Virus record (IMG/VR): IMGVR_UViG_3300025127_004845
Coordinates: 1 to 26,487 of that record
Reading direction: 5' to 3' (one strand)
DNA: 26,487 nucleotides
From: a virus
Under the pieces are notes generated by a model, which saw nothing but the letters and a program-made list of their open reading frames with translations, made no database searches and was not told where the DNA came from. The position numbers were made by a program, and so were the translations under genes. How positions within the stretch are numbered: the stretch's first letter is position 1; every line of letters starts with the position of its first letter. Of this stretch, positions 19,434-23,742 are shown one piece after another.

Positions 19434-19520
19434 CCACGTTTTTTTCTTATATTATTTACTTTAGAATGGTTCTAAACAAGGTTTTTTTCTTGCCTAGCTG
19501 TACTCACCCCGTTTTTTTCT
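19434..19520 (+). repeat. T-tract repeats GTTTTTTTCTT, copies 1-3
   Basis: Copies start with G at 19438, 19481 and 19511. The last two are 30 bases apart and the last is preceded by CCCC (19507-19510). The same paired, 30-base spaced arrangement recurs at 19895/19925, and a single clear copy lies at 20518. The non-coding stretch 19294-19658 also holds promoters, a palindrome and a hairpin, listed separately. Confidence 0.7.
19460..19476. promoter_or_regulatory. Palindrome TTTAGAA-N3-TTCTAAA, copy 1
   Basis: TTTAGAATGGTTCTAAA has 7-bp arms. A near-identical 17-mer, with 8-bp arms, occurs at 20062-20078. It lies between two divergent transcription units (minus-strand early operon and plus-strand cassettes), a usual place for an operator. 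Confidence 0.55.
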
Positions 19521-20061: not shown

Positions 20062-20078
20062 TTTAGAACGGTTCTAAA
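20062..20078. promoter_or_regulatory. Palindrome TTTAGAAC-G-GTTCTAAA, copy 2
   Basis: A perfect 8-bp inverted repeat around one central base, in the leader of the 105-residue gene. It matches copy 1 at 19460-19476 in 16 of 17 positions. Its symmetry and place suggest an operator for a dimeric regulator. Confidence 0.6.
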
Positions 20079-20664: not shown

Positions 20665-20895
20665 ATGACAACTGCAAACAACAAAACAATAACTGATCCG
20701 TGTGGCTTGTGTGGTCATTCAATTAAGGGTAATGCTATTCCCAAAGTTTTGGACAATGGTAAGACTTGGACTTGGGACGGAGGCCACAATGGTTGGCCGA
20801 GAGTCGACGGACAGATCTGCGATCAATGTCACGCAGCAGGTGGCGGGGATCGTGTCAATGCAATACGGAGGATCGTAGCAAGTGCCAAAGCTTAA
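20665..20895 (+). CDS. Small zinc-knuckle protein (76 aa)
   Basis: 76 residues. CGLCGH and CDQCHA form two CxxC pairs about 40 residues apart, which could bind one zinc ion. The loop between is rich in Gly and Trp (TWTWDGGHNGWP), and the end is a basic helix. AGGAG and a near-consensus promoter precede it. Base composition differs from its neighbours: of the 120 bases at 20761-20880 I count 68 G or C, while flanking non-coding DNA is very AT-rich. It may have been acquired recently. No family is recognised. It overlaps the next gene by 14 bases. Confidence 0.72.
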   Translation: MTTANNKTITDPCGLCGHSIKGNAIPKVLDNGKTWTWDGGHNGWPRVDGQICDQCHAAGGGDRVNAIRRIVASAKA

Positions 20896-21088
20896 TACGA
20901 TATTCTTTTGGATCGCCATAGCAAACGTTGTGGCGATCTCCTTTCTACTCGGGATGATCTATCCGATCCAACTTGAGATCCTACCGGTCGATAGTATGAT
21001 CTTCATCGGATGCTTGATCCTATATCTAGTATGCTCGATAATTATGTCCTACTATTGGATCCGAGATCCTGAGAACATCTACAAATAA
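20882..21088 (+). CDS. Small two-helix membrane protein (68 aa)
   Basis: 68 residues from GTG 20882, with GGAGG ten bases upstream. Two membrane helices: TIFFWIAIANVVAISFLLGM (6-25) and MIFIGCLILYLVCSIIMSYYW (about 39-59), joined by a short loop with Pro and Asp, and a polar end. Isoleucine is coded mostly by ATC, unlike the ATT/ATA preference of neighbours, and many of these ATC codons make GATC sites. It overlaps the zinc-knuckle gene by 14 bases and ends before a strong terminator. Function unknown. Confidence 0.65.
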   Translation: MPKLNTIFFWIAIANVVAISFLLGMIYPIQLEILPVDSMIFIGCLILYLVCSIIMSYYWIRDPENIYK

Positions 21089-21105
21089 AAAGACTTCTCC
21101 AAAAA

Positions 21106-21133
21106 AAAACCCCAGGGATTAACCTGGGGTTTT
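21106..21133. terminator. Bidirectional terminator between convergent genes
   Basis: AAAACCCCAGG (21106-21116) pairs perfectly with CCTGGGGTTTT (21123-21133) around a six-base loop, with A and T runs on either side. It ends the plus cassette and probably also the minus gene at 21155-21406. Confidence 0.88.
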
Positions 21134-21154
21134 CATTTAGGAAGGATCTAGGAT

Positions 21155-21406
21155 CTACTTCTTATCTTTTAGATCGTTACAGATCTCTCTGATACGACGA
21201 GCCATTTTAGAATAGTAATTGTATTGTGTTAGAGTTGCCCGACGATCTAACAGATCCGCCTCGTCCCTTAGCATTCTTACTGCCTTATCTATCTTCTGTA
21301 ATTGAATGCAGTAATTAGCATACCAATATTCTTTCTTCTGAATATCCGTATAACTCTCGTAAGTATTAGGTTTAAATTTAAACGGTAATTCTAACTGTTC
21401 CATCAC
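21155..21406 (-). CDS. Helical protein with N-terminal clamp-binding-like motif (83 aa)
   Basis: 83 residues; the second Met (21403) may be the start. It begins MEQLELPFKFKP, where QLELPF resembles the sliding-clamp binding peptide of Hda (QLSLPL), also N-terminal there. The rest is a basic helical or coiled-coil region rich in Tyr, Arg and Asp (IDKAVRMLRDEADLLDRRAT, YSKMARRIREICNDLK). It has its own promoter at 21444-21471 and shares a terminator with the convergent plus cassette. A role in clamp binding is inferred from the motif. Confidence 0.7.
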   Translation of the reverse strand: MMEQLELPFKFKPNTYESYTDIQKKEYWYANYCIQLQKIDKAVRMLRDEADLLDRRATLTQYNYYSKMARRIREICNDLKDKK

Positions 21407-23019: not shown

Positions 23020-23742
23020 ATGACAAAAAAGGGAAAGAATCCACGACCGCATGTCTTGTATGGTCGTATGAAAGAACAAGAGCTGATAAATTTAATTAAA
23101 GAAACAGCTGCGACATACAAAACAAGACAAGGGGGACGAATCTATGAGATGAAGCAAGAACTCGAACGTCGTCGTATGCTTACCCTAAAGAGAAAAAACC
23201 CTGAAGAGTACGAGAGGAGAAAAGAAGAGATGTTAGAACGACCAGCCAAACACAAAATGTTTGCAAAATCCACATTACCGAGAGGTATGACTCCAATGCA
23301 GGAAAAATTTTGTATGGAATACGCAGCTACCGGTGATGAACTCAATGCCTACAAGGTTGCTGGGTATAAAGAAGACGACACCAACGGACTAACCCGTCGA
23401 CGTGCCCGCCAATTACTTAATAATAAAAAAGTACAGGCTCGTATCGAGGAATATCAAGAGCAAGCTTTGAAACGCATTAGTTGGACAAAAGAAAAAGTCC
23501 TTGAAAAAATGCACGAAGTGTATCAAAACTCTATAGCCGAAGGTGATCACACAAATGCTAACCGATCACTAGAAAATATTGGGAAACATCTGGGTATGTT
23601 TGTTGATGTTTCTAAAATTGAACAAAATATTACAACATCAGAATTATTAACGAACGATACCGACAAAGATATAGAACGTCTGGCGGATGTTGTAGGACTA
23701 AAGATTGTAAAAGGTGGAAAATCCGAAAATACCGATAAGTGA
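23020..23742 (+). CDS. Terminase small subunit
   Basis: 240 residues. The central domain (about 89-150) has MTPMQEKFCMEYAATGDELN, then AYKVAGY, then RARQLLNNKKVQARIEEYQE, which is the DNA-binding helix-turn-helix pattern of the Terminase_2 small subunit family. The N-terminal 85 residues are an extra basic, helical region (KQELERRRMLTLKRKNPEEY). The C-terminus probably contacts the large subunit. It recognises phage DNA for packaging. It overlaps the large subunit gene by 29 bases. AGGAG precedes the ATG. Confidence 0.88.
   Translation: MTKKGKNPRPHVLYGRMKEQELINLIKETAATYKTRQGGRIYEMKQELERRRMLTLKRKNPEEYERRKEEMLERPAKHKMFAKSTLPRGMTPMQEKFCMEYAATGDELNAYKVAGYKEDDTNGLTRRRARQLLNNKKVQARIEEYQEQALKRISWTKEKVLEKMHEVYQNSIAEGDHTNANRSLENIGKHLGMFVDVSKIEQNITTSELLTNDTDKDIERLADVVGLKIVKGGKSENTDK

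Follow-up and report, generated by a model that had tools for sequence, protein, structure and literature searches.

The DNA analyzed here (hereafter the window) is a 26,487-nt fragment of a marine tailed phage, IMG/VR record IMGVR_UViG_3300025127_004845, with genes for a DNA polymerase, endonuclease I, terminase and portal. Its nearest isolates are pelagiphages, and these are distant (37–45% protein identity): the best isolate match of TerL is Pelagibacter phage HTVC023P (37%) and those of the polymerase are HTVC103P and HTVC104P (45%). A host search by way of phage contigs inside sequenced genomes gave no match. The leftward genes extend to about 19.3 kb, those from the terminase small subunit gene (terS) onward point rightward, and over this interval the sign of the GC skew flips in all of the genomes examined. 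A dense array of GATC sites lies at this switch of gene direction and skew, past the leftward replication genes and 1.8–2.2 kb upstream of terS. The features of the region are as follows, in window coordinates and with the strand where a feature has one.

19460–19476: operator-like palindrome TTTAGAATGGTTCTAAA in the transcription-switch region
20062–20078: second copy of the operator-like palindrome, TTTAGAACGGTTCTAAA, in the same region
20665–20895, plus strand: orf20665, 76 aa, two CxxC motifs (Zn-ribbon-like), 5 GATC
20695–20698: the 20th GATC, an outlier at the beginning of orf20665, kept in five of five aligned homologues
20814–21256: GATC array, 19 sites in 443 bp, spacings of 7–80 bp, flanks not conserved
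20882–21088, plus strand: orf20882, 68 aa, hydrophobic, small membrane-like, 9 GATC
20910–20939, plus strand: 13-bp hairpin within orf20882, one GATC at each foot
21110–21129: GATC-free, terminator-like hairpin CCCCAGGGATTAACCTGGGG, located between convergent genes and also conserved in relatives
21145–21155: intergenic GATC pair GATCTAGGATC between the terminator and the end of orf21155
21155–21406, minus strand: orf21155, 83 aa, 4 GATC in its 3′ part
23020–23742, plus strand: terminase small subunit (terS), the reference gene for finding relatives

The array takes in the 3′ half of orf20665, nearly all of orf20882, the spacer after the terminator-like hairpin and the 3′ part of orf21155, at a density of about one GATC per 23 bp. 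A sequence-only reading of the window had reported 20 sites between 20695 and 21256, 19 of them in the last 443 bases, and a recount returns identical numbers. The same reading had the sites reaching the beginning of the minus-strand gene, which is wrong, as it is the 3′ end of orf21155 that is covered; and it had them crossing a terminator, which holds insofar as the array spans both sides, although the hairpin itself has no GATC and falls inside the widest gap between sites (21065 to 21145).

There are 98 GATC sites in the whole window, and the remainder of it predicts about 1.3 per 443 bp as against the 19 seen. The local excess of GATC (11.6-fold, 19 copies) is the strongest among the 256 tetramers; the runners-up are enriched 7–9-fold with 4–10 copies, and the tetramers obtained by permuting the letters of GATC have 0–2 copies each, so that equal enrichment of words of the same composition, which had been named in advance as an outcome that would speak against the cluster, is not found. 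In dinucleotide-preserving shuffles of the whole window (n = 200) no 443-bp stretch holds more than 9 GATC, and shuffles of the 443-bp patch alone (n = 5000) give a mean of 4.5 and a maximum of 11; chance or composition as the source of the array is rejected by these shuffles. Tandem duplication is rejected as its origin too, and the array is not a repeat array, because the flanks of the sites differ. Outside the array region GATC is not strongly avoided (78 observed, 91 expected). The bases flanking the array sites carry no information beyond the 4-mer and no extended operator motif, and helical phasing of the sites is not significant (best phase coherence p = 0.14). It is thus the bare 4-mer that counts, with nothing beyond the four bases visibly constrained.

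Selection acts on the DNA of the array, across coding and non-coding sequence and on both strands. Protein coding had been held not to explain the cluster, and the synonymous simulations, the intergenic pair and the minus-strand gene all bear this out. With phage codon usage, orf20882 has 9 GATC where 1.3 are expected (0 of 20000 simulations), orf20665 has 5 where 1.9 are expected (5 of 20000) and orf21155 has 4 where 1.1 are expected (75 of 20000). When each gene's own codons are reshuffled, the three genes pooled have 18 sites against 8.9 expected (maximum 16 in 5000) and orf20665 has 5 against 1.6 (P 0.0004). By this test orf20882 alone is less decisive (9 against a mean of 6.4, P 0.016), because its choice of ATC for Ile already embodies the excess; its codons are unusual, with a GC3 of 0.58 and ATC in 10 of 14 Ile codons. 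Codon usage alone is rejected for the pooled genes by both types of simulation. Conservation of the sites apart from the amino acids, another point raised from the sequence alone, is also observed: GATC retention in array-bearing relatives is 0.77 and 0.86, compared with 0.51 and 0.58 for other tetramers, and one site survives changes between Gln, Arg and Thr codons (CAG, CGG and ACG), all of which end in G before ATC. Between genes, GATC pairs stand in place of other sequence. The GATCTAGGATC pair, or its variant GATCTAAGATC, is present in L007, L011, L013 and L088, relatives without the pair have a GGAAATAGATTTA-like sequence, and the spacer GGATCTAGGATCT of some phages occupies the position of GGAAATAGATTTA in others.

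The search with terS found relatives at 80 loci. Within the closest clade, identity mostly exceeds 90% in the flanking and replication genes, and the small-gene region is mosaic. The aligned region has 20 GATC in the window, 17 in L007, 15 in L004 and in L012, about 10 in L088, 8 in L011 and in L013, 7 in L003 (only in orf20882) and none in L006, L008 and L014. The small terminase is 96–99% identical among relatives carrying 15–17, 7–10 or no sites (96–98% for the three phages with none), and on a tree of the neighboring genes, weakly resolved, the array shows four changes and is not clustered. Homologues of orf20882 have 7–9 sites in L003, L004 and L007 and none in L006, L008 and L014. The sequence-only reading was to be doubted if relatives with the same proteins lacked the sites, and this is half the case: homologues at 62–66% amino-acid identity have none, so the protein does not need the sites, and all of those at 86% identity or above have 7–9. 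The only examined gene occurring solely with multi-site arrays is orf20665, present in the window, L004, L012, L007, L011, L013 and L088 and absent from L003, L006, L008 and L014; multi-site arrays are known from only about seven contigs, and the genomes are incomplete. Neither orf20665 nor orf20882 has a convincing Pfam or PHROG family or a match in isolated phages, and no remoter relatives of either were found outside the clade of the window. Small genes of L037 and L044 are also locally dense in GATC (7 in 157 bp in L037), and we have not counted these as arrays because they are probably set in part by Asp-rich protein motifs.

The array is therefore an exchangeable and dispensable accessory module, swapped between close relatives, which makes a role as packaging site or essential origin less likely. 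Both had been put forward on the strength of the sequence alone. The phages that have near-identical TerS and no site tell against a packaging signal, and the same pattern of presence and absence speaks against an obligatory origin, although the array does lie at the switch of skew and gene direction.

The switch region contains further conserved elements. The palindrome TTTAGAAYNRTTCTAAA, exact or with one end base off, occurs once or twice per genome in the window, G001–G006, G008 and G009, always in the switch region and 2.0–3.75 kb upstream of terS; it may resemble the alphaproteobacterial Irr box, the iron control element. Farther away, G005 and G008 have dense TATATA tracts (15–16 copies in about 155 bp) at approximately 9.3–9.5 kb and 9.5–9.7 kb upstream of terS, respectively.

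Searches for a D12-type Dam (PF02086), an N6/N4 methylase (PF01555) and a phage Dam (PF05869) found none in the window or in G001–G003, all of which are fragments. A phage Dam-family gene (PF05869, E 6e-31) is present at G004:31285–31668 (L182); the phage concerned is a 59-kb relative without a GATC array. These fragments thus pair no phage-encoded Dam or CcrM methylase with the array, and a reader of the sites would have to come from the host or from the missing part of the genome, or be a novel kind of protein, for example the orf20665 product. SAR11, which the nearest isolates infect though the window phage need not, is reported to methylate GANTC, and some pelagiphages are reported to be depleted in GANTC (PMC9516812); PMC12570018 reports orphan GATC methylases for a Pelagibacter isolate and prophage. 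GANTC is mildly depleted in the window as a whole (58 observed, about 89 expected), as it is in G003, G002 and G008.

Clusters of GATC under selection are familiar from bacterial origins and from P1 packaging. The E. coli oriC has 11 GATC in about 245 bp and is bound by SeqA. The array is like it in having a similar density (19 in 443 bp), a bare GATC unit without flank information and a switch of skew and transcription nearby. It differs in being accessory and mostly intragenic, in having no known initiator boxes and close relatives without it, and in its spacing, which shows no one-face helical phase (a typical though not strictly required property of SeqA and Dam clusters); no Dam or SeqA was identified for it in the window and the G001–G003 fragments. 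The pac site of P1 has seven TGATCA/G hexamers inside the terminase gene, and P1 has its own methylase. The array resembles it as a phage-borne GATC cluster that precedes terS, but it is without the hexamer, shows no flank preference for the TGATCA/G context and is 2 kb away, and where sites of the P1 type would occur wherever the terminase does, L006, L008 and L014 have the terminase alone. Clusters in coding sequences of E. coli have been defined by at least four GATC at a mean distance below 18 bp with a seed pair below 8 bp (PMC493266); the sites at 21145, 21152, 21172 and 21182 form such a cluster (mean 12 bp, one pair 7 bp), with two of the four at or beyond the gene end, and the six sites of 20935–21016 (mean 16 bp) come close to one. 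The array shares with that E. coli network the placement of clusters within coding sequences and differs in lying in phage genes and extending into non-coding DNA and an opposite-strand gene. Work on marine phages with GANTC or GATC methylation (PMC9516812, PMC12570018) similarly ties marine phage genomes to host adenine methylation motifs, although the available portions of these papers deal with genome-wide motif densities or methylases and describe no local array. Nothing on point emerged when the literature was searched for clustered GATC sites in phages.

The explanation that we favor, tentatively, is that the array is a GATC recognition platform, probably linked to methylation, at a transcription-switch region; a methylation-dependent switch, one of the causes offered in the sequence-only reading, is possible, although no Dam-type methylase turned up in this record or its close relatives. 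Recognition of exactly four palindromic bases points to a protein of the Dam, SeqA, MutH or restriction type. The accessory module would keep bare GATC as a platform for a reader most likely of this kind, because only the four palindromic bases count, and the reader would probably sense the adenine methylation of the sites and may be supplied by the host or by the unsequenced part of the phage. The density of sites could permit cooperative binding, and the bound reader might distinguish new copies from old, or set the timing of transcription or replication close to the switch, in hosts that have it; phages of hosts without such a reader would lose the array. Against this stand the lack of a Dam- or CcrM-type gene in the window and the G001–G003 fragments, the reported GANTC methylation of SAR11, the non-significant helical phasing and the location of most sites within gene bodies rather than promoters.

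Next to the methylation-linked platform we rank, as an unlikely contender, a phage-encoded reader that recognizes GATC independently of methylation, for example the Zn-ribbon-like orf20665 product, with the array as an autoregulatory or recombination platform travelling with its own gene. The confinement of orf20665 to contigs with multi-site arrays, among the genes examined, and the presence of sites outside it are consistent with this, but the association arises partly by construction, because five sites are inside the gene and the block recombines together. Furthermore, L003 has seven sites in orf20882 yet no orf20665, L004 and L012 have orf20665 without the intergenic pair, and the AlphaFold model of orf20665 (pLDDT 42) is uninformative and demonstrates no DNA-binding fold. 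The array might instead be a decoy, also among the causes offered in the sequence-only reading, titrating a host GATC-binding enzyme (a methylase, a SeqA-like protein or a restriction enzyme), as the high local density, unconstrained flanks, accessory distribution and absence of strong GATC avoidance elsewhere in the window would allow. We consider this improbable, since a single array would presumably add few sites to the thousands in a host chromosome, and added sites would be expected to raise sensitivity to a GATC-cutting enzyme.

An effect at the RNA level, in which self-complementary GAUC strengthens the folding of plus-strand transcripts, is a lesser rival and similarly improbable. Plus-strand RNA of 20800–21090 does fold better than 200 shuffles (z = −2.7), GATC-rich alleles of orf20882 reach −55 to −63 kcal/mol compared with −37 to −44 for GATC-free ones, and the hairpin with GATC feet is paired in seven of seven alleles, two of its pairs with compensatory change. 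The GATC-free alleles are among these seven, however, minus-strand RNA has no folding excess (z = −0.08), no flank extension beyond the four bases is conserved, and the array runs past the terminator, through intergenic DNA and into an opposite-strand gene. That the sites merely follow from the codon usage of newly acquired genes, or arose by chance, is very hard to sustain: the codons of orf20882 lend themselves to this, but orf20665 and the pooled genes remain in excess after own-codon reshuffling, and a non-coding pair and a minus-strand gene take part. Least probable of all is a pac site controlled through GATC methylation like that of P1, whose clustered Dam sites, together with terS some 2 kb away, make the comparison natural; site number ranges from 0 to 20, searches of the window and its close relatives revealed no phage methylase, and a site read by TerS is largely refuted by the near-identical TerS proteins of phages without sites.

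Arrays of other words lie in the corresponding control region of more distant relatives. L060 has 16 CTAG in 426 bp (L060:3004–3429), L049 has 12 (L049:3416–3821), L054 has 10 (L054:2954–3350), and L063 has 7 CTTAAG in 358 bp (L063:2947–3304); each exceeds all of 3000 local shuffles. These arrays are mostly in non-coding DNA beside the conserved core CTTCTKCGTATGATACT, a highly conserved 17-bp promoter-like element in the intergenic control region of this distant group (L063:3273, L060:3383, L037:1002) that is absent from the clade of the window. The comparison is a lead rather than a test, because it was made after inspecting many motifs. It raises the doubtful but attractive idea that short-palindrome arrays upstream of terS are exchangeable, with a word for each lineage (GATC in the clade of the window, CTAG in L060, L049 and L054, CTTAAG in L063), and might act as rapidly evolving landing platforms fitted to different reader proteins or host methylation systems, a class not described so far.

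Here, a selected GATC cluster runs through both the genes and the intergenic DNA of an accessory phage module that is swapped between near-identical phages, and its presence and absence therefore constitute a natural experiment on the role of the cluster. Should a methylation system prove to be the reader, the array would be an example of marine phages tuning to host epigenetics, and should the CTAG and CTTAAG arrays belong to the same type of element, they would together represent a new class of fast-evolving recognition platform.
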